From Flexithrix dorotheae DSM 6795 (GTDB lineage: Bacteria > Bacteroidota > Bacteroidia > Cytophagales > Flammeovirgaceae), in the NCBI RefSeq assembly GCF_000379765.1, contig NZ_KB903465.1, positions 124,001 through 188,000 of the forward strand: a stretch of DNA of 64,000 bases, given 5' to 3'. The notes beneath the pieces are model-generated. The model was given only the letters and a program-made list of their open reading frames with translations, was not told where the DNA came from and made no database searches. The first letter of the stretch is position 1. Every line of letters begins with the position of its first letter. A program made the position numbers and the translations under genes. Below, piece after piece: positions 7,457-25,682 of the stretch.

Positions 7457-7487
7457 TTTGATATAAACAAACATATTCTTATTTTTG
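7457..7487 (+). promoter_or_regulatory. Bacteroidota-type promoter TTTG-N19-TATTTTTG
   Basis: A -33 box TTTG at 7457-7460 is followed by 19 bases and an exact TAnnTTTG -7 box at 7480-7487, the primary sigma factor consensus of this phylum. Transcription would begin near 7494 and give about 190 nt of leader before the small gene at 7685. The rest of the 7382-7684 gap is AT-rich with no recognisable gene. Confidence 0.65.
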
Positions 7488-7684
7488 TATTATTAAACTT
7501 AAAGCAACTTCTCCCAACTACCTCCTTTTCACCCAAACATACATTGTTTTAATCAAGGGTAAATACTGAAAATGATTAAAGTCATATACTAAAACTGACA
7601 GGTATCATGGCAAACTTAGTAAGTTAATACTATCTTATAACTAACAGGAATAGATTTTTTAAACCTAACAAAGTTATATTAATT

Positions 7685-7864
7685 ATGCCCTATTACAAGT
7701 CCACAAACAGAAGGAGTGCTACACCTATTTCAGATGCAGCAAAATTTTTCAGTACAAAGAGAAACGAAAATCAATTACAAGGATACACTGCATCCTTTAG
7801 TAATGAGAAATCAGAAATTAAAGCAATAAGAAGAGAAGATAAATTTAACCAGAAAGCAAGATAA
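7685..7864 (+). CDS. Small basic protein, 59 residues, function unknown
   Basis: An ATG-to-TAA frame encoding MPYYKSTNRRSATPISDAAK and onward, rich in Lys, Arg, Ser and Asn, with no hydrophobic segment or cysteine. The support for a real gene is context: a consensus promoter lies upstream (7457-7487) and a strong intrinsic terminator begins 34 bases after the stop (7898-7933), so a discrete short transcript is likely. The long leader of about 190 nt could hold regulation. Alternatively the transcript could be a small RNA and the frame incidental. It is not recognised as any known family. A soluble nucleic-acid- or anion-binding role is possible only by charge. Confidence 0.5.
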   Translation: MPYYKSTNRRSATPISDAAKFFSTKRNENQLQGYTASFSNEKSEIKAIRREDKFNQKAR

Positions 7865-7897
7865 TCCCTTTTCCTTTTTGCCTTAAAGATTTTAATT

Positions 7898-7933
7898 AAA
7901 AAGGCTTCGGAATAAATTCCGAAGCCTTTTTTT
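7898..7933. terminator. Bidirectional intrinsic terminator
   Basis: A perfect 15-bp stem (arms 7898-7912 and 7917-7931, containing AAGGCTTCGG) has a 4-nt loop, an A-run on the left and a T-run on the right. It can end both the small gene on the plus strand and the 1109-residue protein gene on the minus strand. Confidence 0.9.
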
Positions 7934-7939
7934 AGGCAA

Positions 7940-10900
7940 TTATTTTTTCAAAAACTTTTTTACAACTTTTGATCGCCCATTATTTATTTCCACAAAATAC
8001 ATCCCAGGTTTATATGAGCTAATATCGATAGTCCTGGAATTTTTATTAATGTTTGCTTTATTTAACTCTGTCAATAGCATCAGCTTTCCAGTCAAATCTA
8101 TAATTTTAATACTATATTCATCCATGACTGATGAACTAAAAGATATATTTAAATCATTTTGAGCTGGATTTGGGTATAAACCAACTTGCTCTAAATCAGA
8201 AGAAATTTCTTTATCCAATACTTTATCCAATACTTTATCCAAAGAACCATAAGCATTTCTGGATGCAGCAGATTGATGGACTTCACTCTCTACTATTAAA
8301 TAATCCACAGCTCCCCAACTACTATTCGCTTTAATAAAAAGTGAATGCTTCCCTTCGGAAATTTGAATAGGTTCTGAAATCATATCTCCCCAATATGCCC
8401 CCCCAAAATGACTACTAAAATCAGAAACAGAACCAGGATCTCCATTCAAAGAAATACTATTATTGTCTAATTTGAATAAATAACCATTTGGCCAATAAAC
8501 CATTGAATTATGGGTATGTCCTGATCTTACTCTTAGTTTAAGCGTGTAATTGCCAGAAGAAGGTACATCAAAATCAATTTTAAATTCGTCTCCGTTATCA
8601 AAAATGGCTACTGCTCTTCCAGAATCATCGCTATAAACTGGAGAGGAGAATTCGGTAACATTACTTTTAGAACCCTGATTATTTATTACAATAAAATGCT
8701 CCTCCGCTTCATACTTTTGAGAGGCAGGTTCTATAACACTATTTTCAATAACAAATGTTCCTTCAGCAGCAAATTTGGATGATAATTTCCCACAACCCTT
8801 AGTTTGAACACTCCATTGATAAGTCCCAGGCTTTAAATTTGTCACTTTAAAAATAGGATGAATTCCTACATTACTTTCTTCAACTAGTCCATAACCAGTA
8901 ATAAAATTTGCTTCACCTGACAAGATTAATTCATCTCCTTTTTTTACATACAAATTATAAGATTCATGCTCTTCCGGTCTTCTAACATTGTCCCATGTGA
9001 GTAAGGCAGAACTTGAATCAACTAGGGCATTTAAATTTGTGGGTACAATTGGAAGAGGTTTAGATTGAAAAGACTGATTGATTAATAACTTCCCATCTTT
9101 AGTGAAGATATCTAAAAATCCATCTCCATTGTAGTCCACTTTGGCAATCACGTTAGTTAATCCATTTAAGGTATTATTGGGATAAATTGGGGATGGAATA
9201 CCTGTATCTGAAAATTGCCCACTACCATTATTTTCATAGTAGGTTTCTGCTTTAATGTCAAGATCTCCATCACCATCGTAGTCAAACCACTCGCCATAAA
9301 GCTGATCGGGTAAACCTACATTCATATCTTCAAAAATACCTGAGGAGTTTTGTTGTAGAAGTTTTGTCCAATAATTAAAAACACCATTATCATATTTATA
9401 TCCGTGGTGTAAAAAATCAACCAAACCATCCTGATTATAATCTGCCCAAGATCCAACCCCCCTCACATTTCTCGCATTATTTTCAAAAAGAGTTTTATCC
9501 GCTTTATTTAATTCCACAATAAAGTCATAAGAGGTCTGGATATCATAACGTCCTATTGATAACTCCAAATCACCATCCTGATCAACATCAATCCATTTAA
9601 AATTAAATACACCATAAACATCAAAACTCTGAATCATTTCCACATAATTTCCTTCCTGATTCTCAATTATCCTTAATTCTGTATCATAACCTAAAAAAGA
9701 ATAAAGTAAAAAATCAAAATCACCATCACTATCAAAATCACGCACTTCAAAACTTATGATTTGATCTTCCTCATTATAGGGTAAAGGGATTAAAGAAGCT
9801 GTAAAATTATTTTGATTGTTTGTGTAAAGTTTAATTTGATTACTATACTCTTCCACAACCATTAAATCAAGATCGCCATCATCATCAAAATCCAACCATT
9901 TAGCAAAATAAATATTAGGTGAATTTGGTATTCCTTGTAAAAGCTGACTTTGATATAACAAACCTGATTCTCCTTCAGCAATTTCAACTTCAAAAAAATC
10001 TATCCCACCCATTGCCTTATCGGCTCTAACTTCTAAAAAATAATTCCCTTTTTTCAACTCCAAAACAGGAGATTTAAGATCACCCCAGTAGGATTCACCA
10101 AAAGTATCATTGACTTGGAAAATTGAATTATTATCTCCAGAAAAATTCAATCTAACATCATCTACAAAAAAGGAATATCCAGAATGCCAAAAGCTTTGGC
10201 TATCGGTAGCATCGCCACTTCGTACTCGTGCATTTAATACATAAGTACCATCTTCAGGAATTGAAAAGTTAACATGGATTTGGTCATTTTTGTCAGGGAA
10301 TCCAACCACTTTACGAACCTTTCCATTTTCCAATAAATCTTCAAAAACAGTAATTAAACCATTTCCTAAAAAATCCTGATTTACGTAATAGAAATCCTCC
10401 ACCTCATATTTTGCTAAAGGAGGAGTTTCATAAACAAGTAAAGTCCACTTTAATTCTCGTTCAACATAATTGTCAGGGTTTTCAGCCTCGTAAACTTTTA
10501 TGGTTGACGAAATTGTAATTGGATATAACGAATTTGAGCGATCTGCTTCTAATTCACCTGAAATTAATCCAGTCCTCTCATTTATCCATAACCCTTCAGG
10601 TAATCCCATTGCCACATAAACAAGTGAATCATTTTCTTCATCGATAGCTTCAACTTGTAGGGAAACCGATTCACTTATAAATCTCTTCTGAGTAGATAAA
10701 GGACTTATTTGAGGTTTTTGATTTGGGATAACTTCTTGAATTACTTCCAAATAATCAACAGCCCCCCAACTGCTTTTACATTCAATAGTTAATTCGTGAT
10801 TTCCAGCACTAAGTTCAACTCCATTTAAAACCATATTCCCCCAATAAGATCCTCCAAAGGCGGACTGAAAAGTGGAAATACTATTTACATCACCAACAAA

Positions 10901-11269
10901 ATTAACAGAATTACCATCTAATGTAAAAGCGTAACCATTTGGCCAATATGATTCAGGCGCATTGTTATAACCAGACCTCAAGTTTATTTTCAACTGAATC
11001 ATTCCGGATGATTCTATTTCAAAAGCTATTTTCAACCTATCACCATTATCAAACAATGTCACTGCTTTTCCTGTACCATCAGCATAAATCGATTCTGGGA
11101 ATTCAATTATATCTCCTTTGCTACCTACATCAGTCACCACACTAAAATAATTTTCTGCTTCGTAGATTGTACTTTGATTCGTTTCAATATTAGGAACAGG
11201 AAAAAAACCAAAGGATTTACTAAATTGTATTAACAACAATAACAATAAGGAAAGGGTGTATTTTACCAT
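7940..11269 (-). CDS. Modular T9SS-secreted surface protein (CBM-like, FG-GAP, FnIII, sorting domain)
   Basis: 1109 residues. Signal peptide about 1-21. Carbohydrate-binding-like beta-sandwich modules at about 36-177, 287-429 and 852-995 share the signature YWPNGYxFxLD ... GGxYWGDM ... SWGAVDYL. An Ig-like stretch covers 183-280. Six calcium-binding FG-GAP/VCBS-type repeats between 450 and 735 show DxDxDG motifs (DFDDDGDLD, DFDSDGDFD, DVDQDGDLE, DYNQDGLVD, DYDGDGDLD, DYNGDGFLD). A fibronectin III-like domain spans 740-843. The C terminus (about 1029-1109) is a type A T9SS sorting domain, beginning LYPNPAQNDLNISF. The protein is therefore expected at the cell surface or secreted through the Por machinery. 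It has the same module order as the upstream 2342-residue protein and looks like its shorter paralogue. No catalytic domain is visible; glycan binding or adhesion is inferred. Confidence 0.85.
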   Translation of the reverse strand: MVKYTLSLLLLLLIQFSKSFGFFPVPNIETNQSTIYEAENYFSVVTDVGSKGDIIEFPESIYADGTGKAVTLFDNGDRLKIAFEIESSGMIQLKINLRSGYNNAPESYWPNGYAFTLDGNSVNFVGDVNSISTFQSAFGGSYWGNMVLNGVELSAGNHELTIECKSSWGAVDYLEVIQEVIPNQKPQISPLSTQKRFISESVSLQVEAIDEENDSLVYVAMGLPEGLWINERTGLISGELEADRSNSLYPITISSTIKVYEAENPDNYVERELKWTLLVYETPPLAKYEVEDFYYVNQDFLGNGLITVFEDLLENGKVRKVVGFPDKNDQIHVNFSIPEDGTYVLNARVRSGDATDSQSFWHSGYSFFVDDVRLNFSGDNNSIFQVNDTFGESYWGDLKSPVLELKKGNYFLEVRADKAMGGIDFFEVEIAEGESGLLYQSQLLQGIPNSPNIYFAKWLDFDDDGDLDLMVVEEYSNQIKLYTNNQNNFTASLIPLPYNEEDQIISFEVRDFDSDGDFDFLLYSFLGYDTELRIIENQEGNYVEMIQSFDVYGVFNFKWIDVDQDGDLELSIGRYDIQTSYDFIVELNKADKTLFENNARNVRGVGSWADYNQDGLVDFLHHGYKYDNGVFNYWTKLLQQNSSGIFEDMNVGLPDQLYGEWFDYDGDGDLDIKAETYYENNGSGQFSDTGIPSPIYPNNTLNGLTNVIAKVDYNGDGFLDIFTKDGKLLINQSFQSKPLPIVPTNLNALVDSSSALLTWDNVRRPEEHESYNLYVKKGDELILSGEANFITGYGLVEESNVGIHPIFKVTNLKPGTYQWSVQTKGCGKLSSKFAAEGTFVIENSVIEPASQKYEAEEHFIVINNQGSKSNVTEFSSPVYSDDSGRAVAIFDNGDEFKIDFDVPSSGNYTLKLRVRSGHTHNSMVYWPNGYLFKLDNNSISLNGDPGSVSDFSSHFGGAYWGDMISEPIQISEGKHSLFIKANSSWGAVDYLIVESEVHQSAASRNAYGSLDKVLDKVLDKEISSDLEQVGLYPNPAQNDLNISFSSSVMDEYSIKIIDLTGKLMLLTELNKANINKNSRTIDISSYKPGMYFVEINNGRSKVVKKFLKK
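8209..8244 (-). repeat. 12-bp tandem repeat in the surface-protein linker
   Basis: The unit CTTTATCCAATA occurs twice exactly (8209-8220, 8221-8232) and a third time nearly (8233-8244). It encodes the linker LDKVLDKVLDKE between the last binding module and the sorting domain. The 12-bp unit keeps frame, so copy changes would only alter linker length. Confidence 0.85.
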
Positions 11270-11478
11270 AACAAGCTGGATTTAAAAATTAACAAAAAAA
11301 TAGATAGTTAAAAAATAATTCGCCTAATTTGGTAAAAATCAATATTATATATTAATGTGTAATATACAATCAAAACAAATGCTCAGCTGTTAACAATAGT
11401 TAATTCCACTTTTTTTTAAACAGGTCGCTCTTTAAAGGGATTAACTTCATCAAAAAGCTATTTGAAAAAATCCAGAAT

Positions 11479-14400
11479 TTAAAAGCTCTGATTTTCTTTT
11501 ATAATTCTGGTTTTATAACTGTATGTACCGGTACTTATAGTCAGAATATATAATCCCTGTTGAAGATTTTCAAGGTTTAAAACTTTTCTAAAGTCCTGAC
11601 TATTTTTTTCAAAAACCTGCTGATCAAGTATTTTTCCCAGTACATCATAAATCACTAAACTGTAACTTCCATTTATTTGATTCTTTAATAAAATCGAAAA
11701 TTCATTTTTAACCGGATTAGGAAAAACACTAATTCCTTCCAGACTAATTTCGTCTTCAAGCCCGGTTACAGATTTATTTTCAATAATTATTTTCTCGTTG
11801 CCTACTATTACTGTCACTTCCTTTTCTTCATTACTTTTATCTATACCTAATGAAAGGCTTCCCAAATCAAGCGGAATACCCTGGTAATCAGCCAATACCC
11901 TGTATTCATTGATGGCTAGTCCTTCAAACACGAAATTCCCTTCTTCATCAGAATAAGTCTCGGCAATGACCTCATTTATATTTAATTGAAGAATATAAAG
12001 CCGAACATTTGGCAAAGGATCTCCTTCTGCATTCCCACTTACAATTCTTCCTCCGGAAAAATTAGAACTAGCCACCACTTTTCCTTTTATAGAAGAGTTT
12101 CCCCCTACTACGGCAGCCATCTGCTGGATAATAATATTTTGATTGAGACTATCACTGGAAAGTGTTACTTTATTAGCATCAGCTCTGATAATCACATCTC
12201 CAAAATATGTATCAAGCAGATTTGGAAATACTTTTTTATCAGGTATGGCCTTAATGAAATATCTGCCTTGAGGAACATCAGTGAAAACATAGAGATCACT
12301 CTCCACAATTTCCTGAGAAGTAAAATTCTGGAATTTTCCATCTTCCTGTTCCTGATACAACACCACTTTCGCATGCTTTACCCTCTCCCCGTTTTTCTGG
12401 AATAAAATACCTCCGATGCTATAACCTACTTCAGTTTGGGTTAAGAAAATACTAAATGCTTCCTGATAACTTCCACCATTTCCATCCTGAGCTTCTATCC
12501 TTACGCTAAAGACCTTTTGTTCGGTGTAGCGAAATATTCCCCCCGAAAAAATTTCATTTCCAATAATGAAAAACTTGCCATTATCATCATCTCCTTCTCC
12601 TTCTATGAGATAAAATGTATGATTATCGAATTCATCTGGGTCTGAACTAGTTAGTTTTCCAACAAGTGTGCCCACAGGCGCATTTTCCACCAAATTCACA
12701 TTGGAGAGTTTAATATCATCGGGATTACGATTTGCTGGTGATTCATCCACATCGGAGACTAGAATAACAAATTCTTTATGAAAAACACCTCCATTCCCAT
12801 CACTTACAGCCACTTTGATTTTATGACTTTCCTTTTCTTCAAAGTCGAAATTAATTTTGGTAAAAAGGCTGTCTCCTTTGGCTTCAAAAAGCTGGTCACC
12901 ACCAAAATCAGCCAATACAGAAAATTGATGACTATCCAAGCTATCTAAATCCTCCACGGAAAGCTTCCCTAAAAAAGCGCCTTTACCTTCATTTTCATTA
13001 ATAATTATATTTGATATCAGAATATCAGTTGGTAAATTATTCCCTATTGTTTCTTCTACATCTTCAATATTTATAGAAAAAACCTTCTCAAAACTCCCTC
13101 CATTTCCATCTGAAACCTGGATCCTTATCTGATAGGATTTCTTTTCCTCAAAATCGAAAATTACTGCATTTTTAAGCTGCCCATTTTCAATAATAAAACT
13201 ACCATTATCTTCACTTCCTTCTCCATTAAGAGCCAGACCAAACGAAAGCACATCTGCGGAATCCGTATCAATACCTGTTAAATCCCCAATATTGGAACCT
13301 GGCAGTACGTTTTCCTTAATATTATTGTTTGAAAGCAAAATATCGGTTGGTGAGGAATTTTCCACACTTTCCTCTTTGTCAATTACAGTTACAATAATGA
13401 TTTTTTCGAATTCTCCTTCATTGTTATCAGTTACCTTAATCCTCAAACTGAAGGTTTTTTGAGTTTCAAAATCAAACACTTTGGCCGATCTTAATTGGTC
13501 ACCTTCAATCTGGAATTTATCGTTGTCAAGGGCTCCTTCTCCATCAGCAAATTCAAAAGTATGGGAATCTTCAATATCCGGATCATCAGCTGATAAAACT
13601 CCAATTAATGCTCCCGGAGCCTGTTCCTCTTCTATTCCCGAATTGTCAATTAAAATATCTGTAGGAAGCTGGTTTTCAGGAGCTTCTTCTTCGTCCAATA
13701 CCTGAATTGTAAATTCCTGTTTTACAAAAGCCCCATATTCATCTTTTGCTAAAACAATAACCTTCAAGAACTCTTGTGTCTCAAAATCAAAAACTGTTTT
13801 AGTTTTCAACAGATTATTATCAATTACAAATTTAGTACTATCCAAACCTCCTCTTATCTCAAACTGATGTACCTGAAAAGTATCAGGATCAATGGTGCTT
13901 AGCTCGCCAACTATACTTCCAATAGGAAGGTTTTCCTTAATCGTATTGCCCGATAATGCTACTGCGGTAGGCGATGAGTTTTCGAAAACATCTTTTACAT
14001 TAATCGTAAAGTTTTCAGCTAATACCCCACCTTTTTTATCAGAAACTTTCACCCTGATCGTAAAACTCTGGTTTTGTTCAAAATCGAAAATTTCCCGGGT
14101 AATCAACTTATTTTCATCAATAGCAAATTTTTCATTATCGTTACTTCCTTCTACCAGGGAAAATTCGAGTTGATCAAAAAAATCAGGGTCTTTACCGGAA
14201 AAAACTCCAATTTCTGTATTTATTTTTTCATTCTCTCCAACTTCATTTTGGCTCAATTTCAACTCCGATGGAGGTCTGTTTGATCTTACCCCTCCTACTT
14301 TTTCCACAAACAGATAATCAACCGCAGCATAGGCCTTGGCAGACTTAATAGCTAAGTTATAAGTTTCACCAACTTCCAGATTTACGGTATCCGAAATCAT

Positions 14401-17400
14401 GTCACCCCAATGCGCACCACCATAATAAGAGCTAAATTCAGAAAGGGTAGTATTATCACCAACAAGTTTCACCTCCTTCCCTTCCAGTTTAAACTGATAA
14501 CCGTTAGGCCAATAAGCCTCATTGGTCACCTCTCCACCTGCTCTTAACCTTACCACCAAGCGGTAACTAGCATTTTCTTCTACATTAAAATCAATTTTAA
14601 ACTCATCATCAACATCAAAAATGCTAACACCTTTTCCAGAGCCATCTTTGTAAATGGGTTCATTAAACTCCTTAACTGTTCCATTCGAACCCACATCATT
14701 TAACACCTGATAATGTTCTTCAGCCTGGAAGAAATTTGGGGATAAGCCGCATTCCCTTTGTATATTTTCCAATGAATAGCAACCAAAAGCATTATTCTTT
14801 ATAATCAGGTTACCAGAAACAAAATCTTTTAACTTATCCAGAATACAACAATCTGATAATAAAGGATTAAAGTTGATTGCCAATTGGGTAATTTTCTGAA
14901 GATTTTCTAATCCTTTTAATGAAGTAAGTTGATCATTACTATGAATTTCCATATTTCCTACCTCTGTTAGATTTTTAAGGCCTTCTATCGAAACCAGATT
15001 TGGGGAATTTTTGATTAAAAGAGTCTCTTTTACAGAAGTTAAAATATGCAATGCATCCAGGTTAGTAATATCAGTTCCATCAATATATAAATTACCTTCC
15101 AACACTCGGCAATTAAACTCATCTACTTCTTTTTGAGTTGTTAATACCCTGTTTTTAAAACAATCATCACATTTTTGAGGCAGGATAAAATCTTCTATTT
15201 CATACTTACACTCAGGATTTTCCTTAAAATAAACAGAAAGGTCAATTGGTTCGCCTGGCTCAGGAGCAAAACCTACGACCATTGGATTAGAAATAACTTC
15301 GAGTTCTTTGTTATTCACTACCAAAGTACCAAATGGTCTGTTAGTAAAATAGATCTCTACTGTTTGAAGAAGAATATTACCAAAGTTGGAACAACTTGTT
15401 TCTGCAAGCACTACTTTATCTATACTACATGGAAAGTCCTTATTGCTAATGGTGAATGAACCTTCACTTGCAAATTTTGAAGCCAGTTGACCACTACCAA
15501 CAGTTTGTACACTCCAATGATAAGTTCCGGGTGCAAGTTCACGTGCCTTGAATATTGGAGCAATACCTACATTTCCTTTTGGCCTTAAAGGGTCACTTTC
15601 TTTAAGCCCACTTCTATAATCCTCGTACTTTAAATGATTCTTGGTTATTTGAGGATAGCCTGTATCTCTATTCGACTCTGAAGTAAATATAGTTTCGTTT
15701 CCTTTTCGAATATATAAGTTATAAGCCTCTTCTTCTTTCCTGACATCATTCCAACTCAAAAGGACACTGTGTGAATTGGGATTCGCTTTTAAATTAGCAG
15801 GAATTTGAGGTTTGGATTTTATTTTATCAGATGAGTTAATATAGAGTTTACCGTCTTTGGTAAAAAAATCAAGATGACCATCCCCATTAAAATCCAATGT
15901 AGTCAGGATATTGGAAACCCCATTTATACTTTTTGGATATACAGGAGTCCTTATACCGGAATTACTAAAATTTTCATTGCCATTATTTTTAAAAAAAGTA
16001 GTTGAACTAATATCAACATCCCCATCTCCATCATAATCAAACCATTCTCCATAAAGCTTATCAGGAAATCCCTTATTTAAATCTTTAAATATTCCAAATT
16101 CACCTTGCATATAAAGCCTTGTCCAAAAATAAAAAGGGCCATTTTCGAATCTATAACCATGCTGCAAAAAATCCTTTAATCCGTCCTTGTTCAAATCCGT
16201 CCATGAGCCTAGTCCAGAAACTCCCCTTTTGGGATAATTAGAAAAGGAATTTTCAGATTTATCATATAGAAGTCTAAAATCTTGAGAATATTGGATTTCA
16301 TGTTCTCTCCCTTGGATGTCCAAATCTCCATCCTGGTCGCTGTCTACCCAATTATACTCAAAGTTACCATAGACATTTAGAAACATAGGAATCTCATCAT
16401 ATGTCCCATTTCCATTATTTTGAAATATGTTTATTTCAGATGTAATGAAACCTGGAACATTATCTGACCCATATATAAGAAAGTCTAAATCTCCATCACT
16501 ATCAAAATCTCTCAGATTTATATTATAAACTAAAAAATTTGATTCAAGATTTAGATTTATTATACTTCGATTAAAATGTCCACTATTATTTCTATAAAAC
16601 TCAATTTCATTGGAATTTTCTCTAGCCAAAAAAAGGTCAAGGTCTCCATCTTTATCTTCATCCACCCATTTCGCGTCCTGGATGTTTTCTAAACTTACTC
16701 CTGAAAGAAGCTGTAGCTTATATAAGTCCTGAGCAGTTCCATCATTTTTCACAATTTCCAAATAATCCACAGCCACCCACGGAGATTCAGCTTCTATTTC
16801 CACATAATATTCTCCTGCTTTGAGATTTAATAAAGGGGATTCCATTTCACCCCAATACGATCCTCCCAAACTATTCTGAAGCCCTGAAAGACTACTATTA
16901 TTACCTATAAAAGATAAATCCACATCATCAATACTAAAAGAATAACCTGAAGGCCAGTATTTGGTTTGGCTGGATTTATCTCCGGCACGTAGTCTTACGA
17001 TTAATTGGTATTTTCCGTCCTCTGGTATTTTGAAACCCAAATGAATCCGATCTCCGACATCAAATAATGCCACCGCTTTTCCTTTACCATCATTGTTTAT
17101 GGCCTCGCCAATAATTTCAACCTTTCCATTTGTCCCTACATCCTTAAAGGTAGTATAATTGTCCTCCATTTCGTATTTACTTGTTGAAGGAACACGGTGA
17201 ATATCAATTTTCCAATTAAATATAAAATTCTCATAGATTGATGGATTATCCTTTAGAGAGACTTTTACAGTTAATGTTGCTTCTGTAGGGTAAAAAAGAT
17301 CAGAGTAGATTTTAGTAACTGTACCTGAAATTAATCCGGTTTCTTTATTAAGCTCCAATCCATTAAAAAATCCACTAATTTGATCGTCTGATTCATAAAC

Positions 17401-18507
17401 CAATTCCCCACCATTAGAAGCACTCGCCTTTAACTGCAAACTCACTTCATCGCCAACAAAACTGGACTGATTGGGAACATCCTCTATAGTAATTTTCACT
17501 TCACCATTATCTTCCACTTCTTCTATTTCCAGGTAGTCTACTCCAGCCCATTTGGCTTTTGCTTCTACGGAAATTTCATTATTGCCAGCATTCAGGTTTA
17601 ATTCGACTGACTCCAATATTCCCCAATAAGATTCACCATATTGAACTATACTATTATAAACTCCTGAAAAACTGATACCAGTATTATTCACACTGATTCC
17701 ATAACCATTTTCTGTCCAATACCTGTCTTTATATCCTGATTCACCTGATCTTAACCGGACTTTTAACTTATATTTTCCTGATTTTGGAATATTAAAAGTC
17801 ATCTTTAATTGGTCTCCAATATCCCAAAGTTTTACGGCAATTTCCCCATTTGGATCTCTTATCCATTCAGGATCGGCTTCAATAGGATATCCTCCCCCAT
17901 CAATCACAGCAACAAAATGATCTTCAAATTCAATTTTATCACCAGAAGGGGGTGGCGGAGGATTTCCTTCTATTTTTTCTATTTCTATATAATCTACACC
18001 TGCCCAGTAAGCTTTTGCTTCTATAGAAATTTCATTGTTATCTGTAGCCTTTAAGGTTAATTCTGGAGAATTCATTATTCCCCAATATGAGGTTCCATAT
18101 TGAATAATACTACTCTGGTCTCCTGTAAAATTAAAAACATTATTATTTACACTTAATTCATATCCGTTTTCTCTCCAATACCTATTGATATCTCCCGATT
18201 CACCGGACCTTAACCGTACTTTTATTAGATATTTTCCATCTTCTGGTACCTGAAATTCCATTTTTAACTTATCTCCAGCATCCCATAGTTTTACAGCTAC
18301 TTCACCGTTTGGATCTTTTATCCAATCATAATCCGCTTCAATAACACTTTTTGTTCCTTCATCGGTCACTACCACAAAATTATTTTCAACCTCAATTCGG
18401 GTAGCATTTATTTTATGCTCAATGGAAGAATAGGAAAAGGAGCTTATTGTAGTAAAAAGCAAGGTGGTGAAAACCAGTTGAAAATAATAGTTGTTATTCA
18501 TATTCAT
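11479..18507 (-). CDS. Giant modular T9SS-secreted protein with cadherin-like repeats
   Basis: 2342 residues. Signal peptide about 1-28. Carbohydrate-binding-like modules at about 36-177, 193-328, 445-586 and 1260-1402. An Ig-like segment at 340-435. Six FG-GAP/VCBS-type calcium motifs between 610 and 885 (for example DEDKDGDLD, DYDGDGDVD). A fibronectin-like domain at 900-1022. A leucine-rich receptor-L-like domain at about 1115-1253. Six cadherin-like repeats between 1411 and 2024, each of roughly 95 residues, with recurring PTDILLS, ENxxxG and FDFExxxxFxIRIKVSD. Two carboxypeptidase-regulatory-like beta domains at about 2029-2110 and 2138-2235. A T9SS sorting domain begins at about 2258 (ISVFPNPVKNEF). 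The first two binding modules are joined by a short Pro-rich linker (PPPPP). The protein is probably a calcium-stabilised surface adhesin or polysaccharide-binding scaffold. The module order shared with the gene downstream (7940-11269) suggests duplication followed by gain of the LRR and cadherin part. No catalytic motif was seen. Confidence 0.88.
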   Translation of the reverse strand: MNMNNNYYFQLVFTTLLFTTISSFSYSSIEHKINATRIEVENNFVVVTDEGTKSVIEADYDWIKDPNGEVAVKLWDAGDKLKMEFQVPEDGKYLIKVRLRSGESGDINRYWRENGYELSVNNNVFNFTGDQSSIIQYGTSYWGIMNSPELTLKATDNNEISIEAKAYWAGVDYIEIEKIEGNPPPPPSGDKIEFEDHFVAVIDGGGYPIEADPEWIRDPNGEIAVKLWDIGDQLKMTFNIPKSGKYKLKVRLRSGESGYKDRYWTENGYGISVNNTGISFSGVYNSIVQYGESYWGILESVELNLNAGNNEISVEAKAKWAGVDYLEIEEVEDNGEVKITIEDVPNQSSFVGDEVSLQLKASASNGGELVYESDDQISGFFNGLELNKETGLISGTVTKIYSDLFYPTEATLTVKVSLKDNPSIYENFIFNWKIDIHRVPSTSKYEMEDNYTTFKDVGTNGKVEIIGEAINNDGKGKAVALFDVGDRIHLGFKIPEDGKYQLIVRLRAGDKSSQTKYWPSGYSFSIDDVDLSFIGNNSSLSGLQNSLGGSYWGEMESPLLNLKAGEYYVEIEAESPWVAVDYLEIVKNDGTAQDLYKLQLLSGVSLENIQDAKWVDEDKDGDLDLFLARENSNEIEFYRNNSGHFNRSIINLNLESNFLVYNINLRDFDSDGDLDFLIYGSDNVPGFITSEINIFQNNGNGTYDEIPMFLNVYGNFEYNWVDSDQDGDLDIQGREHEIQYSQDFRLLYDKSENSFSNYPKRGVSGLGSWTDLNKDGLKDFLQHGYRFENGPFYFWTRLYMQGEFGIFKDLNKGFPDKLYGEWFDYDGDGDVDISSTTFFKNNGNENFSNSGIRTPVYPKSINGVSNILTTLDFNGDGHLDFFTKDGKLYINSSDKIKSKPQIPANLKANPNSHSVLLSWNDVRKEEEAYNLYIRKGNETIFTSESNRDTGYPQITKNHLKYEDYRSGLKESDPLRPKGNVGIAPIFKARELAPGTYHWSVQTVGSGQLASKFASEGSFTISNKDFPCSIDKVVLAETSCSNFGNILLQTVEIYFTNRPFGTLVVNNKELEVISNPMVVGFAPEPGEPIDLSVYFKENPECKYEIEDFILPQKCDDCFKNRVLTTQKEVDEFNCRVLEGNLYIDGTDITNLDALHILTSVKETLLIKNSPNLVSIEGLKNLTEVGNMEIHSNDQLTSLKGLENLQKITQLAINFNPLLSDCCILDKLKDFVSGNLIIKNNAFGCYSLENIQRECGLSPNFFQAEEHYQVLNDVGSNGTVKEFNEPIYKDGSGKGVSIFDVDDEFKIDFNVEENASYRLVVRLRAGGEVTNEAYWPNGYQFKLEGKEVKLVGDNTTLSEFSSYYGGAHWGDMISDTVNLEVGETYNLAIKSAKAYAAVDYLFVEKVGGVRSNRPPSELKLSQNEVGENEKINTEIGVFSGKDPDFFDQLEFSLVEGSNDNEKFAIDENKLITREIFDFEQNQSFTIRVKVSDKKGGVLAENFTINVKDVFENSSPTAVALSGNTIKENLPIGSIVGELSTIDPDTFQVHQFEIRGGLDSTKFVIDNNLLKTKTVFDFETQEFLKVIVLAKDEYGAFVKQEFTIQVLDEEEAPENQLPTDILIDNSGIEEEQAPGALIGVLSADDPDIEDSHTFEFADGEGALDNDKFQIEGDQLRSAKVFDFETQKTFSLRIKVTDNNEGEFEKIIIVTVIDKEESVENSSPTDILLSNNNIKENVLPGSNIGDLTGIDTDSADVLSFGLALNGEGSEDNGSFIIENGQLKNAVIFDFEEKKSYQIRIQVSDGNGGSFEKVFSINIEDVEETIGNNLPTDILISNIIINENEGKGAFLGKLSVEDLDSLDSHQFSVLADFGGDQLFEAKGDSLFTKINFDFEEKESHKIKVAVSDGNGGVFHKEFVILVSDVDESPANRNPDDIKLSNVNLVENAPVGTLVGKLTSSDPDEFDNHTFYLIEGEGDDDNGKFFIIGNEIFSGGIFRYTEQKVFSVRIEAQDGNGGSYQEAFSIFLTQTEVGYSIGGILFQKNGERVKHAKVVLYQEQEDGKFQNFTSQEIVESDLYVFTDVPQGRYFIKAIPDKKVFPNLLDTYFGDVIIRADANKVTLSSDSLNQNIIIQQMAAVVGGNSSIKGKVVASSNFSGGRIVSGNAEGDPLPNVRLYILQLNINEVIAETYSDEEGNFVFEGLAINEYRVLADYQGIPLDLGSLSLGIDKSNEEKEVTVIVGNEKIIIENKSVTGLEDEISLEGISVFPNPVKNEFSILLKNQINGSYSLVIYDVLGKILDQQVFEKNSQDFRKVLNLENLQQGLYILTISTGTYSYKTRIIKENQSF

Positions 18508-18862
18508 AGATCAGTTAAACACAGTCTTAAAAAATAGTAGTCCAGTTATCTTGCTTATAGGAATTCCCCCCATCAATTCACAACTCAGAATTGACCAAAA
18601 ATGAGGATAGTAAAATACAGTTCTGTACGTAGTTAAAATGCAATTTTAGAATTGTTCTACAAGACTCTCAAATATGCTAAATTTTATTTTTAATTTTGGT
18701 TAACAAATGTTAATCACCGCAATAATTATTGGTTAAATAAGGATTAAATCAGTTTTTTATTTCAGAAAACAACAAAACCTTCCAATAATGAAAGGTTTAT
18801 CATACTAAAATTCACCAAAACTTAACGGACTGGAAACATGATAAGATCAGGTCATCTTATCT
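18508..18862. other. 355-bp intergenic region upstream of the giant surface protein
   Basis: AT-rich, with no supported gene. It should hold the minus-strand promoter for 11479-18507, but I find no exact -33/-7 pair. No terminator, tRNA or repeat is obvious. Confidence 0.5.
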
Positions 18863-19342
18863 TCAATTCATTCTTATCCGAACTTTTCTTGTGCTGTAAT
18901 CTATTTTAAAGCCATAAGTTTTCATGGTATCAGCACCAATAATCCCATTAATTTTTATGTTTGTACGTTCAAAAGTTGAATTTACAATTGGGGAAATATC
19001 ATAGGTTACGTAGGGTGTTACGATTTCCTTCCCTACCAGGTGAAGCTTCACATTATAGGCATTTTTCATTCTTACCCGGGTGTTTCCAAATCCGGTAAAT
19101 TCCAAATTAGGATTGTGCTTTTCCAAAATTCCAAAACCATACTTTTTCTGATCTTTTAAATGAACAATCGTTCTGTCAGAACCTGTATCTAAAAGTAAAT
19201 ATGCTTTTTTTCCATTAATTACCCCTTCCACAATTGGTTTATCATCCAGGCTGATAATATCCAAATAAAAATAATCCACATCGGAGGAATTTTCCACGAC
19301 AGGAAAAAAGACTACCCAAAAAAAAGAAAATAAAGCCATCAT
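18863..19342 (-). CDS. Retropepsin-like aspartyl protease family protein
   Basis: 159 residues. A hydrophobic N terminus (about residues 1-17) suggests a signal peptide or membrane anchor. The catalytic motif LLLDTGSDRTIVH matches the D-T-G active site of clan AA aspartic proteases. The C-terminal IIGADTMKTYGFKIDYSTR is the matching hydrophobic-hydrophobic-Gly element and strand. Single-domain proteins of this type act as homodimers, each chain giving one DTG. It lies 355 bp upstream of the giant T9SS protein on the same strand, and processing of surface proteins is conceivable but unproven. The fold call is good; its substrate is unknown and many family members are uncharacterised. Confidence 0.75.
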   Translation of the reverse strand: MMALFSFFWVVFFPVVENSSDVDYFYLDIISLDDKPIVEGVINGKKAYLLLDTGSDRTIVHLKDQKKYGFGILEKHNPNLEFTGFGNTRVRMKNAYNVKLHLVGKEIVTPYVTYDISPIVNSTFERTNIKINGIIGADTMKTYGFKIDYSTRKVRIRMN

Positions 19343-20013
19343 AATGTTAGTAATCTTTGGTTTACAAGCAAAAAATAAAACTTAACAACTGAAGTGGCCT
19401 TTATGAATTGAAATATACATTCATTTCAAAAGCCACCAATTAACTTTCCTATCCGTTGGAAAGGAGTTGTACATAGTTCAGTTTTGGAAAATTAAAGGAT
19501 TGTTGAAAGTTTGTGGTATTGTTATAATTCAACCTCTGGAATAGTATTTTTACAAAGGTTTAATATGCTTGTCAAAGGTAAATAGCCAAAACTCCCTAAG
19601 CTATCAGATATGAGCCAAAAAATACCGGAAATGTATCATCTTTACCTAAATGGTTAAATTGATGAGATTTTTAAAACTATTTATTAATCCCCTTTTTCCA
19701 TTTATAAATATCCATTGGACTTTCCTTTTGGGAATATTATTTCATCATATTTTTTTCATTTTAAACCTGATTACAAACCAATAATTTAAGGTTGGATGAA
19801 GTATTGAGTAGCCTATTTTCCCCTTTTTGCAGATGGAATAAATTAATGTAAAATAAAAAATGATACATTTGTAAACCATGGCTTTTCCATAGAAGTTAGG
19901 TAAAATCAATTAAAAAATAATTAAAAGCAGCTGTCTTTTTTATCCGTTTATATGAGTTGAAAAACATAAGCATCAAAATTACAGCTTCTTCTATCCAGCA
20001 CTTGGTTTAAAAA
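19343..20013. other. 671-bp divergent intergenic region
   Basis: AT-rich spacer between divergent genes. An imperfect hairpin at 19394-19436 has GTGGC and GCCAC at its ends. A 40-codon hydrophobic frame (19662-19784, plus strand, start MRFLKLFINPLF) could encode a small membrane peptide but has no other support. A -7-like box TACATTTG at 19864-19871 may belong to the gene at 20014, giving a leader of about 140 nt. Nothing else was recognised. Confidence 0.4.
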
Positions 20014-21867
20014 ATGAAATTTCAAATTATCATTATCGGGATAATATTTCTTTTTATCTCAATATCAGGAAGTTATTCACAAGTCAGAACAAAAGTAGCT
20101 CTTACCAAAGTGAGTAAATTAACTCATAAAATAATTACTCCACATACAGATAAAAAGGAACAGGTTAAAGCTATTTACGATTGGATTACTCATCATATAA
20201 AGTTAAGTACAAACCCGAGAAAAAAAGTCTTTTCAGACCCACACAAAGTAATTCAAAAGAGAAAAACCAACCAGCTAGGATTTTCCAACCTTTTCCATCA
20301 GATGTGTCAGGTTGCCGGAATTCCATCTCTGCAAGTACAAGGTTATTCTAAATCTCATTTCATGCCTTATAAATACCGGGCAATAAATTCCTTCCATTAT
20401 TGGAATCTCATAAAAATTGAGTCAAAGTGGTATGCAGTTGATGCAACTTTTGGAAGTGGTGATTTAAAATACAGAACAAATTTCATCAAAACTAAAATTT
20501 TTAAGCAGCCCCACTTTTCACAGAAAATCAAATTCATTCGAAATCCATCGGAAGAATATTTTTGTCCATCTCCAGATATTCTGAATGAAACGCATATTCC
20601 AAATATCCCCGAATTTCAACTTACATTAGATCCCCGACCTGTAAATCCATTGTTTGAAATTGATTCCACTGCTCATCTCTCACCAATTAATTATACTGAT
20701 TTAATCGAAAAGTTTTACAATACGACTTTGTGGAGGCAAAAACAAATTGAAGGGAATAAGGCATCCGAATTTAATCCTATAAACCATTTTGATTTGGCTT
20801 TGACACACTTTGAATATTGTGACTTTCACTTTCAGGAAGGAGCTACTGATGACATCAAATTTTTAAATGCACTTAAAGTAAAGATTGATTCTGCGAGTAT
20901 ACTTTTCAGAAATCATTTGGATGAAATTAATCGGGTACATAAGGAGTACTTATTGGATTATGGAGATATGAACAGAAATGTTTCAAGGATAAATTCAAGA
21001 CTGGAAAGTACCACCAGTATTGTAGAAAGCCATATTGGATTAGCTTTCAAAAATAATGACCGGGCAAATGGGTTTCAGATTAAAACAGAAGAACTGGAAA
21101 ACCTTATTCAAAATTGGAAATATGCAGGGTCTGGCCCAAAAAAACCGAACCCACAACAATTAAATAAACTGAAACAACAAATCTCCGAGTATGACAAACA
21201 ACTCAGTATTTTTAATGATTCAATCCAGAGAATTGAATACGAATGCGAGCTCAATCACGATTCTATTATAAACCTTCAACTTCTATCTCTTCACCATATT
21301 CATGAAATCAATTCCCAATTTTCACTTTTAAATGTGGAGATGGAACATCGTTTTCTCCCTAAAACCAAATCTTTAATTTCGGTAACAGATAGTTTAATAA
21401 CCCTATTAAATACAAGAGAGAAGGATATTTCCAGGATGAATAATATTTTCAGAAAAAATTCAAACAAACTTTTTCAATACCTTAAGAAAAAAGAAGTAAT
21501 CGCTAGCAAATATCGGAATATTATAAGACGATGGAGTTTTGATGAATTGAAAAACAAAGACTTTAAACTGAACATCAAAGAGTTTGAAGATCGACTTATA
21601 AATGATTACTTAATCTTTCAAAGAAATTTAAAACAAATGACTTCCTGGTTCAATGAACAAAAAGCTTTTTGCCAGACAGCCGGGAAGGATCTGCTATGGG
21701 GAAAAAGTAAATATGAAAAATTCAATATAGTTTATCCCCATTTTTTATCCTTTATCGCTATTCGGGAAAACAATTATTTCTCAGAGGAATTGGAATTAGC
21801 CAAAATGATGATCTCCAAATCAAGTGCTTTACAAAGAAGCATAGGCAGGAAGACCCCAACAAAATGA
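20014..21867 (+). CDS. Secreted transglutaminase-fold protein lacking the usual catalytic Cys, with coiled-coil C terminus
   Basis: 617 residues. Signal peptide about 1-22 (ends SGSYSQ). Residues 45-150 match a transglutaminase-like domain: VKAIYDWITHHI, GFSNLFHQMCQVAGIPS, then HYWNLIKI with His128 and VDATFGSG with Asp143. In active relatives the nucleophile sits in a motif like V-C-x-G-Y-S just before the SNLF helix; here that stretch reads N-Q-L-G-F-S, placing Gln87 at the cysteine position. Cys98 lies in the following helix and is not the usual site. The rest (about 220-600) is Lys/Glu/Ile-rich helix and likely coiled coil. I infer a non-enzymatic binding or scaffold protein in the periplasm or outer envelope. 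Divergent from the protease gene and 144 bp upstream of the GntR gene. Confidence 0.75.
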   Translation: MKFQIIIIGIIFLFISISGSYSQVRTKVALTKVSKLTHKIITPHTDKKEQVKAIYDWITHHIKLSTNPRKKVFSDPHKVIQKRKTNQLGFSNLFHQMCQVAGIPSLQVQGYSKSHFMPYKYRAINSFHYWNLIKIESKWYAVDATFGSGDLKYRTNFIKTKIFKQPHFSQKIKFIRNPSEEYFCPSPDILNETHIPNIPEFQLTLDPRPVNPLFEIDSTAHLSPINYTDLIEKFYNTTLWRQKQIEGNKASEFNPINHFDLALTHFEYCDFHFQEGATDDIKFLNALKVKIDSASILFRNHLDEINRVHKEYLLDYGDMNRNVSRINSRLESTTSIVESHIGLAFKNNDRANGFQIKTEELENLIQNWKYAGSGPKKPNPQQLNKLKQQISEYDKQLSIFNDSIQRIEYECELNHDSIINLQLLSLHHIHEINSQFSLLNVEMEHRFLPKTKSLISVTDSLITLLNTREKDISRMNNIFRKNSNKLFQYLKKKEVIASKYRNIIRRWSFDELKNKDFKLNIKEFEDRLINDYLIFQRNLKQMTSWFNEQKAFCQTAGKDLLWGKSKYEKFNIVYPHFLSFIAIRENNYFSEELELAKMMISKSSALQRSIGRKTPTK

Positions 21868-21962: not shown

Positions 21963-21994
21963 CTTGTATATACAGGATAAAAAATATACCTTTG
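21963..21994 (+). promoter_or_regulatory. Promoter of the GntR gene, which fixes its start
   Basis: A -7 box TACCTTTG at 21987-21994 fits TAnnTTTG exactly. A weaker -33 element CTTG lies 20 bases upstream at 21963-21966. Transcription would begin near 22001, downstream of the in-frame TTG at 21964, so translation should start at the ATG at 22012. Confidence 0.55.
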
Positions 21995-22011
21995 GCTCAT
22001 ATTCATACAAA

Positions 22012-22728
22012 ATGTCAGATTTACCTCAATATAAAAAGCTCCAGCACCTAATTAAAAAACAAATACTTTCGGGTGTTTACAAAGAAGGAGATTTGTTGCC
22101 TTCTGAGAATGAACTTAGTACTATTCATGAACTGAATAGAGCTACGGTTCGTCAGGCATTAAGTGAATTAGTGAAGGATGGGTATATCTACAAACACAAG
22201 GGCAAAGGGAGTATAGTTAGCTCCAGAAGGCAAACACTTGGACTTCTTTCATTTAAAGGTTTTTCCGAAGTAGTTGGCCAGACCACTCATGCTATTAAAA
22301 ATAAAGAATTGAAAAAGCCTTATTTAACCAAATGGGATGATCAGTTCTTTTATGAATTAACTGATATAGAAAAAGCTGCAGGCTGTATTTGCCTGGAAAG
22401 GTTAAGGATGGTTGATGAGGACCCGGTAATGTTAGAATTTACTTATATTCCAAACCTGAATTTACCCAGATTTGTAAGTAAACCTTTAATCAACAATTCC
22501 CTTTTCGATACTTTGCTTAATAATTATCAAATAGAAGTGATTAATCTGGAGCAGGACATCAGGGCAATTGCAGCGGATGAAGAAATAGCCGGTTTATTGC
22601 AGACCGAAGAGGAAAGTCCGATTCTTCATATTTTCAGGAGGTACCGTACGAATAGAGATGGCTTGTTTATATACAGTTCTTTATACTGTAATACAGAGCA
22701 ATATTCTATTGGAAGTATTTTTAACTAA
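22012..22728 (+). CDS. GntR-family transcriptional regulator with UTRA domain
   Basis: 238 residues from the ATG at 22012. The frame stays open to a TTG at 21964, but that start would lie inside the promoter. Residues about 5-70 are the GntR winged helix: YKKLQHLIKKQILSG, EGDLLPSENELS, NRATVRQALSELVKDG and YKHKGKGSIV. Residues about 90-235 fit a UTRA ligand domain (LERLRMVDEDPVMLE, EEESPILHIFRRYRTNRDG, FIYSSLYCN). UTRA regulators usually bind a sugar phosphate or related metabolite and repress neighbouring catabolic genes. The downstream GH9-like, deoC and sugar-kinase genes are the natural targets, but this is inferred from position only. Confidence 0.88.
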   Translation: MSDLPQYKKLQHLIKKQILSGVYKEGDLLPSENELSTIHELNRATVRQALSELVKDGYIYKHKGKGSIVSSRRQTLGLLSFKGFSEVVGQTTHAIKNKELKKPYLTKWDDQFFYELTDIEKAAGCICLERLRMVDEDPVMLEFTYIPNLNLPRFVSKPLINNSLFDTLLNNYQIEVINLEQDIRAIAADEEIAGLLQTEEESPILHIFRRYRTNRDGLFIYSSLYCNTEQYSIGSIFN

Positions 22729-23030
22729 GAATAAAAATATTGTAAGAAAAGCGATTCCAAAAACTTAAACTAGAATTAAAGTAAAAAAATGATTTTTGAC
22801 TAAGAATATTTATAGGTATTTATTTTAGTAAAGTTGAAAAAATTAAATCCGGATTTATACGCCATTATTTTTGACCAAGAAGATGCGTTTTTGAGGAGCA
22901 TAGCAGCGTTAGGCAACAAAAAAACAAAGACCTATTGGGCAAAAAGAACAAGTAGAAAACGGATGTTATTATTTTATCTTTACTTAACTTGGACACCTGA
23001 ATTTAAATACCAGACATAATTATTTGAAAT
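22729..23030. other. 302-bp region between regulator and GH9 genes
   Basis: AT-rich. It includes a TTG-started 61-codon frame (22834-23019) that I do not accept as a gene: it has no ATG and a composition unlike its neighbours. The promoter of the downstream operon probably lies here; TTTTTGAC near 22794 followed by T/A-rich sequence is suggestive but not an exact match. Confidence 0.35.
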
Positions 23031-24809
23031 ATGAAAAACAGACCCAACGTATTCTTAAATCATGTAGGCTTTTTGTGTGATGCCAGGAAGATAGTCACCA
23101 TAGAGGATTGTGAAGCTACTGAATTCACCATTCAGAACATGAGTCTTCATACAGCCGAATCTTTAGGTGGCTATGAAAACTGGCAAACAGTGTATACCGG
23201 GCCACTAAAAAAAGTTCAAAATCATTTGGGAACATTTCTACAGGGCGATTTTACAGATTTTACCCAACCAGGTTTATTTAGAATTTTCCTTCCCGATGGG
23301 ATAGGTCATTCTTACCAGTTTTTAATTACAGATGGTGCCTTTTCCCGATTACCAAGGCTTTTTCTGGACCATATTCACAACTGGAGATCGGGAAATTTTG
23401 AAAACGAATGGAGAGGACCTATAAATGCAGATGATGGCATCAGGTCAGATAATGGCGAATATATTGATGCTTCAGGAGGTTGGAATGATGCAGGAGATTT
23501 GAGGAAATGGATGACTATGACCAATCTGCCAGCTATTGGTTTTTTAGATATTCACGAAAGACTGGGATTAAAATGGAATCACTTTGCGGAGGAAAACGTA
23601 ACCGATAACGACCTGATCACAGAAACCATTTGGGGAGTGAAATTCATCCTTAAAATGCAAGACCCTGATACAGGGATGATTTTTGAAGAATTGGGTGCTG
23701 GTGGCGAAGGACGAAAACAACCGGGCATGAGCTGGTGGTATGAGAATCATTCTGGCTGTTATGCAGATAACTCCCAAAACCACTTTACTGATAACAAAGT
23801 ACAATCAGGAGATGAAAGAAGGGTAAGGGTGCAGTATAATCCAATTGTACAATATATTAATTCATACATTTTACTTAGGGCCGCCAAAGCTTTAAAAGCT
23901 TATGATCCTGAACTGGCTGAAACCTGTATAAAAGCTGCTTTCAGGGTGTGGGATTTTATCCAAACTAAAAAGGATGAAGATCCTTTACATACCTGGACCT
24001 CGGTGAGATCCTGGAGATTATGTGCCGGAATAGAGTTCCATCTGGCAGGAAAAATCCCTATGGAAGAGGTAACAGTGATGCTTGATGAATTAATTGACCT
24101 GCAAAGTGAAGAATACGGATTTTGGTTTATGGATGCTAAAAAAGATGATCCTTACCGGGCAATTCTACACTCAGCACAACCTATTATCGGGCAGGCGCAG
24201 TTTATGGAATATTTCCCCGATCATCCTGTAGTAGAAAAATGCAGAAAATCTATTCTCATCTGTTGGGAAAAGTATGTGCAATACATCACGAAAACCAACC
24301 CATTTGGCATAATTCCTCTGGGTTGTTATTTCAAACCTGCAACCGAAATAGATGTTTACAGAGATTTGGATAACGGTTTAAAATTCAGGTTTTATTTGCC
24401 TCCAAATTCTCCACAAAGAATCACGCATGGCCTTGCCGGTCACTGGACTAGTTGGTCGCATGGGTTAGCACTTGCCGGAAAGGTTTTGGGAGATAATGAG
24501 ATGACTCAGGCTTCCTGGGATCAGCTTTACTGGCTGCTGGGCAATAATCAGCTAAACAGTTGTCTGGTTTCGGGAATTGGGTATAATACCCCCATGCCGC
24601 ACAGCAGGTTTTTGGGCACAGATGTAGGAGGATTTTGTGTAGGGCCCAGAGGCGAAGAAGAAGACGAAATATTTATAGATATGGATGCCAGAGCGGATTG
24701 GAGCAGTACAGAATACTGGAATTGCCCCTTATCGAATACGTTAATGGCATTTTCAATTTTATTACCAAAAGAAATAAAAACGGAAAGGAAAGTGGGATAT
24801 ATTGGCTAA
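23031..24809 (+). CDS. Glycoside hydrolase family 9-like protein, no signal peptide
   Basis: 592 residues. Residues about 5-105 resemble the N-terminal Ig-like domain of GH9 enzymes (VFLNHVGFL near the start, LFRIFLP). The rest is the (alpha/alpha)6 barrel, with the hallmark GGWNDAGD at 149-156, whose aspartates activate water in GH9. A C-terminal WSSTEYWNCPL contains the likely proton-donor Glu. GH9 enzymes cleave beta-1,4-glucans or act as exo-glucosidases or glucosaminidases. The N terminus (MKNRPNVFLN) has no signal peptide or lipobox, so the enzyme is probably cytoplasmic and acts on imported oligosaccharides. It is first in a row with deoC, a Dabb protein and a PfkB kinase, downstream of a GntR regulator. 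The family is clear; the substrate is not. Confidence 0.82.
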   Translation: MKNRPNVFLNHVGFLCDARKIVTIEDCEATEFTIQNMSLHTAESLGGYENWQTVYTGPLKKVQNHLGTFLQGDFTDFTQPGLFRIFLPDGIGHSYQFLITDGAFSRLPRLFLDHIHNWRSGNFENEWRGPINADDGIRSDNGEYIDASGGWNDAGDLRKWMTMTNLPAIGFLDIHERLGLKWNHFAEENVTDNDLITETIWGVKFILKMQDPDTGMIFEELGAGGEGRKQPGMSWWYENHSGCYADNSQNHFTDNKVQSGDERRVRVQYNPIVQYINSYILLRAAKALKAYDPELAETCIKAAFRVWDFIQTKKDEDPLHTWTSVRSWRLCAGIEFHLAGKIPMEEVTVMLDELIDLQSEEYGFWFMDAKKDDPYRAILHSAQPIIGQAQFMEYFPDHPVVEKCRKSILICWEKYVQYITKTNPFGIIPLGCYFKPATEIDVYRDLDNGLKFRFYLPPNSPQRITHGLAGHWTSWSHGLALAGKVLGDNEMTQASWDQLYWLLGNNQLNSCLVSGIGYNTPMPHSRFLGTDVGGFCVGPRGEEEDEIFIDMDARADWSSTEYWNCPLSNTLMAFSILLPKEIKTERKVGYIG

Positions 24810-24893
24810 CAACTATTTGCCCACCATCATCACTACTTTTCCGGTTTTGAATCAGAGTGCATTTATTTAAAACTAAATATAAATTCAATTAAA

Positions 24894-25658
24894 ATGGACA
24901 AAGTAACCGAACTGTCAAAAATGATTGACCACTCTTTGCTTCACCCCACCATGACGGATGAAGATTTAATAAAAGGGTGTGAAATTGCTAAAAAGTATAA
25001 TGCGGCATCAGTATGTATTAAGCCTTATGCAATAAAACTGGCAGTTGAAGAATTGAAAGGTAGTGATGTTTTGGTGGGTACTGTTATTGGTTTTCCACAA
25101 GGAAATTCTACTGTAGCCATCAAGGTAGCGGAGACCAAACAAGCCTGCCTGGACGGAGCAGTAGAAATTGATATGGTGGTAAATATCGGAAAAGTGTTGC
25201 AGGAAGACTGGGATTATATAGAAGCTGAAGTGAAAGCCGTTTGCGAAGAAACCCACAAGCATGGTGCAATTCTAAAAGTGATTTTTGAAAATGATTTCCT
25301 TCCTGAAGACAAATTCAAAATCAAATTATGCGAAATCTGTACTAAAGTTGGAGCCGACTTTGTAAAAACTTCAACTGGTTATGGTTTTGTAAAAGGAGAT
25401 GATGGAAAATATTCTTATCAGGGAGCTACTCATGCCGATTTAAAATTAATGAGAAAGCATTCTGGTCCAGAGGTGCAGGTAAAAGCTGCCGGAGGGGTAA
25501 GAACACTTGATGATTTAATTGCAGTAAAAGAATTAGGAGTAACCAGAGTTGGGGCTACAGCGACCATCGCCATGATTGAAGAAGCTAAAAAGCGATTCAC
25601 TGGCGATTATGATGCGGAAGCACAAGCCAACGCAGCCGGAGATACTTCAGGTTACTAA
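24894..25658 (+). CDS. deoC: Deoxyribose-phosphate aldolase
   Basis: 254 residues, a class I aldolase TIM barrel. The Schiff-base lysine is in FVKTSTGYG, and the second active-site lysine is in VKAAGGVRT. IDMVVNIG and the opening LSKMIDHSLLHPT are also family marks. It cleaves 2-deoxyribose-5-phosphate to glyceraldehyde-3-phosphate and acetaldehyde in the cytoplasm. The gene starts 84 bp after the GH9-like gene and is followed by repeat-rich spacer. No other nucleoside catabolic genes (deoA, deoB, deoD) are nearby, so it may serve a sugar pathway here rather than nucleoside salvage. The enzyme assignment is firm. Confidence 0.95.
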   Translation: MDKVTELSKMIDHSLLHPTMTDEDLIKGCEIAKKYNAASVCIKPYAIKLAVEELKGSDVLVGTVIGFPQGNSTVAIKVAETKQACLDGAVEIDMVVNIGKVLQEDWDYIEAEVKAVCEETHKHGAILKVIFENDFLPEDKFKIKLCEICTKVGADFVKTSTGYGFVKGDDGKYSYQGATHADLKLMRKHSGPEVQVKAAGGVRTLDDLIAVKELGVTRVGATATIAMIEEAKKRFTGDYDAEAQANAAGDTSGY

Positions 25659-25682
25659 GAAAGGCTCTTGCGGGTAGAAAAA

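Follow-up and report, generated by a model that had tools for sequence, protein, structure and literature searches.

A tandem pair of modular T9SS cargo genes in Flexithrix dorotheae, their apparent hybrid in a sister species and a cysteine-less transglutaminase-like neighbour

The five genes described here (Table 1) occupy part of the window, the 64,000-nucleotide stretch of Flexithrix dorotheae DNA that was analysed (contig C36 of a 9.5-Mb genome, called G000 below, with the composition and genes expected in Bacteroidota), and we think it likely that they consist of a pair of tandem paralogues, A and B, that encode non-catalytic surface cargo and have recombined in the sister species, and of three unrelated genes that lie beside them. 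A sequence-only reading of this DNA had joined all five into one accessory surface-protein block. Its five genes were all recovered as open reading frames and its domain assignments were confirmed by family searches, whereas the block itself was not upheld by comparison with related genomes; the hybrid gene of the sister species and a clade of transglutaminase-like proteins without the catalytic Cys are new elements that go beyond that reading.

Table 1. Positions of the features discussed (window coordinates unless a locus is named; strand "." denotes both).
Feature	Position	Strand	Basis
Bacteroidota-type promoter of small gene, TTTG-19-TAnnTTTG	7457-7487	+	found at corresponding positions in window and G001
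Conserved 5' leader of small gene, ~120 nt	7562-7684	+	95% identity, window vs G001
59-aa ORF (basic orphan protein)	7685-7864	+	ORF call
Bidirectional terminator hairpin between small gene and convergent A, z -4.8	7898-7931	.	fold score; also in G001
Gene A, 1109 aa, T9SS type-A cargo: CBM-Ig-CBM-FG-GAP-fn3-CBM-sorting domain	7940-11269	-	ORF call, Pfam, A-B alignment
A: T9SS C-terminal sorting domain (PF18962/TIGR04183)	7952-8179	-	Pfam/TIGR match
A: CBM-like module 3, orthologous to CBM of G001 hybrid	8276-8734	-	module tree
A: FG-GAP propeller and fn3-like domain	8726-9973	-	Pfam and comparison
A: CBM-like module 2, pairs with B module 3	9968-10420	-	module tree
A: He_PIG Ig-like domain	10502-10696	-	Pfam
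A: CBM-like module 1	10724-11179	-	Pfam and module tree
Gene B, 2342 aa, T9SS type-A cargo: CBM-CBM-Ig-CBM-FG-GAP-fn3-LRR-CBM-cadherins-sorting domain	11479-18507	-	ORF call, Pfam, A-B alignment
B: T9SS sorting domain	11503-11727	-	Pfam/TIGR match
B: cadherin repeats, 5 stretches above cutoff, limits approximate	12373-14265	-	Pfam
B: CBM-like module 4	14284-14742	-	module tree
B: Receptor-L (LRR-like) domain	14857-15114	-	Pfam
B: FG-GAP propeller and fn3-like domain, 73% identity to G001 hybrid	15418-16740	-	alignment
B: CBM-like module 3, orthologous to A module 2	16738-17190	-	module tree
B: He_PIG Ig-like domain	17302-17490	-	Pfam
B: CBM-like modules 1 and 2, tandem duplication inside B	17506-18411	-	module tree, support 1.00
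Retropepsin-like aspartic protease (DTGS), 159 aa, predicted exported	18863-19342	-	Pfam RVP and sequence
Transglutaminase-like protein, 617 aa, predicted exported, long helical C-terminus; Gln87 at Cys site, His128 and Asp143 present	20014-21867	+	Transglut_core and alignment
Giant T9SS type-B cargo genes upstream of Cys-less gene	L235:9274-15999 and L236:9448-15999

Duplication and probable recombination of the cargo genes

The sorting domains of the two cargo proteins match TIGR04183/PF18962 at 62.5 bits (A) and 43.7 bits (B; cutoff 23), the N-termini of both are hydrophobic as judged by eye, and B also carries a carboxypeptidase-regulatory-like domain ahead of its sorting domain. Their FG-GAP propellers have the calcium-type motif DxDxDGD, and family searches found no recognisable catalytic domain in either protein. 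The Pfam family CBM_35 is matched by B above its cutoff of 28 (30.1 bits) and by A below it (23.7 bits); of 23 CBM-like modules taken singly, 10 match CBM_35 and 4 match CBM_6 at E<0.01, and a profile of the module run against the PDB matched the CBM6 of CelB (1uxz) and an agarase CBM6 (2cdo; a weak match). This module is found at about 10 other loci of G000 and is present in genera g1 (the genus of G000) and g8. Neither A nor the FG-GAP/fn3 core had a sequence-detectable relative in the PDB, and a scan of GTDB contigs gave only generic FG-GAP relatives of ≤43% identity, most of them at ~25-30%. The earlier description of A and B as modular T9SS cargo is thus confirmed for the sorting, FG-GAP, He_PIG, cadherin and Receptor-L domains, with the amendment that their CBM modules match CBM35 and CBM6 weakly when considered one at a time. 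From these domains A and B are most likely T9SS-exported, non-catalytic, multivalent glycan-binding adhesins of the outer surface; the proposed role in polysaccharide binding or adhesion is therefore the best reading of their modules. A role joint to all five genes is not supported by the synteny (below).

The two proteins are 43% identical across 843 aa, with the CBM, Ig-like, CBM, FG-GAP and fn3-like modules colinear, which bears out the duplication that had been suggested from their shared module order. Genome G001, the sole congener compared, has the gene order hisF-hisIE-small gene-large gene that is found in the window, with one large gene where G000 has A and B; the G001 assembly is a draft, 84% complete, in which the contig stops within the large gene, so that the 5' part of this gene and any further neighbours are outside view. 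Within the 662 visible residues, identity to B reaches 73% over the FG-GAP/fn3 part, where about half of the residues agree with A, and the last CBM and the sorting domain are A-like. At informative sites to the left of residue 403 there are 105 B-only against 19 A-only matches, and to the right of it 88 A-only against 15 B-only; the Fisher p value of this switch (7e-28) is somewhat flattering, since residue 403 was chosen to fit, but the contrast is far larger than that choice could account for. The groupings in a tree of the modules, (A2,B3) and (B4,(A3,G001)), agree with a hybrid, and this pattern of matches shows the visible part of the G001 gene to be a clean B-A chimera. In its left part A is as far from B as from the hybrid (194 and 196 matches in the same windows) and in its right part B is equidistant from A and the hybrid, which indicates that the duplication predates the split of the two species. 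B lies 5' of A on one strand, so that a deletion between them gives exactly a B-derived front and an A-derived rear, and the likeliest origin of the hybrid is a crossover in which B lost its rear and A its front. In the history that we propose, a tandem duplication would have produced A and B before the genus divided into its two known species, B would have grown by module gain (the LRR, the cadherins and a CBM duplication), and unequal crossing over between the copies would have left the single fusion gene in the sister species.

A history in which the G001 gene is ancestral, and A and B arose later by a duplication after which the front of A diverged fast and the rear of B was replaced, would require no loss in G001, and the hidden 5' part of the G001 gene leaves it some latitude; however, it predicts a front half in which A resembles B more than G001, whereas A is in fact equally far from the two there, and we consider it quite unlikely. 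That A and B are not tandem duplicates at all, and were acquired separately with a common module set, could be argued from the abundance of CBM modules elsewhere in G000, but this is hardly credible in view of colinear similarity through five consecutive modules and of an FG-GAP/fn3 core that reaches such similarity only in G000 and G001. Duplication followed by recombination is the reading retained here.

The three smaller neighbours

When synteny and homologues were compared across 58 related genomes, a core like that of A and B (FG-GAP + fn3) turned up in G001 only, accompanied there by the small gene alone of the other three; homologues of the five genes are otherwise essentially scattered, so that a conserved five-gene block was ruled out. 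The accompanying caution that the small gene, the protease and the transglutaminase-fold gene are tied to A and B by position alone proved sound. We regard the five-gene grouping as mostly chance proximity, in which the three small genes would be functionally unrelated to A and B. Adjoining the five genes, and not part of them, is an apparent sugar-catabolic cluster (21964-27832) with a GntR/UTRA regulator, a GH9-type glycosidase, a DeoC/LacD aldolase and a ketohexokinase-like gene, all reading in one direction.

Genomes of g1 and g8 have one copy each of the small gene (G001 has a further, weak match), and no confident match was found outside these two genera in 291 genomes of the order. Its 59-aa product, with the motif M[PT]YYK..RRS.TPISDAA.FFS, is 84% identical in G001; the nucleotide changes are distributed 3/4/14 by codon position, and the dN of 0.07 and dS of 0.59 (dN/dS about 0.12) mark it as a real gene under purifying selection and not a chance ORF. 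It also appears to be an independent transcription unit, given its conserved promoter (which we take to be of the Bacteroidota type from its TTTG-19-TAnnTTTG consensus), its conserved leader and the strong hairpin that faces convergent A. The leader is more conserved than the third codon positions of the gene itself; between the window and G001 it has no conserved peptide frame, it has no unusual fold (z -0.67), and it gave nothing credible in Rfam and was not found elsewhere by sequence search. In two g8 genomes (L085, L086) the homologue adjoins genes for a ParA-like ATPase and an RHH protein, as read from their sequences. A phage or plasmid origin was considered and rejected, there being no match in either collection.

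Of the RVP and aspartyl-protease families that the 159-aa protein matches, RVP passes its cutoff (24.3 bits, cutoff 20.7); the DTGS motif of the protein was read from the sequence. It is 47% identical to a second G000 copy on contig C2, and it is the C2 copy, not the window copy, that has a GH2-N-like neighbour gene in common with the retropepsins of G008 and G011. The syntenic orthologue with respect to the g8 genomes is therefore the C2 copy and the window gene is a lineage-specific paralogue, to all appearance a stray one without conserved neighbours.

The 617-aa protein has the Transglut_core fold that had been assigned to it (53.5 bits, cutoff 23), with the correction that its Cys-His-Asp triad is incomplete: Gln stands at Cys position 87, and His128 and Asp143 are retained. 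Long homologues (617-667 aa) are found in 11 genomes, namely G000, G011 and all nine species of genus g3, and in these the nucleophile is Q, S or A (11/11), the Asp is kept (11/11) and the His is kept in all but G011 (10/11). By contrast, nine short transglutaminases of 325-380 aa, read at loci L195-L203 in genomes of this family, all keep the Cys, as do nearly all other transglutaminases examined in the order; one long protein of the order, L214, seems to have lost it in a separate event. The long Cys-less proteins are monophyletic with moderate support (0.82), and by their alignment these proteins with a transglutaminase-like (TGL) and a coiled-coil part form a family-restricted clade that has lost the catalytic Cys. 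The C-terminal half of the 617-aa protein is predicted to be helical, in a poor model (the AlphaFold models are poor, with mean pLDDT of 45 and 50, this protein's among them). We infer that it is probably a non-enzymatic scaffold of the periplasm or surface. The clade is a warning for annotation, since such genes would be labelled enzymes, and it gives a lead on structural functions in the biology of surface proteins. The G011 copy (L095, G011:C245, 307-2247), from which the His is also lost, is interrupted in frame by a TAA close to the active-site region and may be a pseudogene or an assembly error.

Directly upstream of the Cys-less gene lies an ABC-HlyD-TolC type I exporter operon, whose ABC protein has an unassigned ~150-aa N-terminus, in seven of the nine g3 species (L098, L096, L099, L231-L234), a gene for a >2200-aa T9SS type-B cargo with DUF11/CshA-type repeats in the other two (G003/G012), and a CBM-LRR-CBM T9SS cargo gene in G011. 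In the window it is one gene away from B, with the retropepsin between them and the order divergent; no exporter is near it there, and the G000 exporter homologue is on contig C1, not C36. All seven genomes examined from other genera of the family have the type I exporter, none with the Cys-less gene as its neighbour, and linkage to the exporter, being seen in one genus only, was dropped as a general rule.

Two functional schemes bear on these neighbourhoods. One would join all five genes into a surface system in which the retropepsin processes the cargo, the transglutaminase cross-links or trims it and the small protein regulates; the closeness of the genes and the export signals apparent by eye at the N-termini of all the proteins except the 59-aa one would suit it, but it is largely refuted by the separate occurrence of the genes in other genomes, its transglutaminase lacks the nucleophile and its small gene has a promoter to itself and is closed off towards A by a terminator, and we judge it very improbable. 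The other would make the Cys-less protein an assembly, anchoring or retention partner of large surface proteins in the family, with its place near B a remnant. Of the 11 genomes, 7 have the exporter operon just before it, 2 the type-B cargo gene and 1 the CBM-LRR-CBM cargo gene, and B is near in the window, but its neighbours vary between genera, seven genomes of other genera have the exporter without it as a neighbour, T9SS cargo genes are numerous and the window order is divergent. Such a partnership is unlikely, although a genuine tie to surface proteins may lie behind the position of the gene beside T9SS cargo in G011 and G003/G012. Chance proximity of the three small genes to A and B remains our preferred account of the window itself.

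Comparison with known systems

The 617-aa protein resembles other Transglut_core (PF01841) proteins in its fold, as recognised by sequence, and in the His and Asp of its triad, and differs from them in the replacement of the nucleophilic Cys by Q, S or A throughout the long clade and in its long helical C-terminal extension. EPB42 and FBXO21 are inactive transglutaminase-like proteins (PMC10318531) with which it has in common a TGL fold without a working catalytic site and a non-enzymatic role (predicted in its case); unlike them it is bacterial, predicted to be exported and of a separate lineage. A literature search found no paper on inactive TGL proteins in Bacteroidetes. In LapG-LapB systems a TGL-type cysteine protease is encoded beside the type I exporter of giant adhesins (PMC3032545), and the TGL gene that follows ABC-HlyD-TolC genes in seven genomes of a related genus is similar in arrangement, but the Cys-less clade is a different TGL family without the nucleophile, and the window has no nearby exporter. 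A further conjecture, which we regard as distinctly improbable, is that this catalytically dead transglutaminase fold with its coiled-coil tail, which is fixed in three genera, helps to handle giant surface proteins secreted by T9SS or type I routes without acting as an enzyme; structurally it would then parallel the LapG-type control of adhesins, with no proteolysis involved.

The CBM-like modules of A and B have weak matches to CBM6/CBM35 along with the D..GD motif and terminal DY, and are set apart from these families as a lineage-specific subfamily with the motif RSG....YWPNGY...GGSYWG.M, most single modules being under the Pfam cutoff. Like other modular T9SS type-A cargo of Bacteroidota with CBM and FG-GAP/VCBS domains, A and B have beta-rich modules and a Por_Secre_tail sorting domain, and their hydrophobic N-termini may be signal peptides; they differ in lacking a catalytic domain and in having a core, CBM-Ig-CBM-FG-GAP-fn3-CBM, that was found in only two genomes of one genus. 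Together with the hybrid they would illustrate how T9SS surface proteins evolve inside a single genus: the genes duplicate in tandem, gain modules and recombine between copies where two domains meet.
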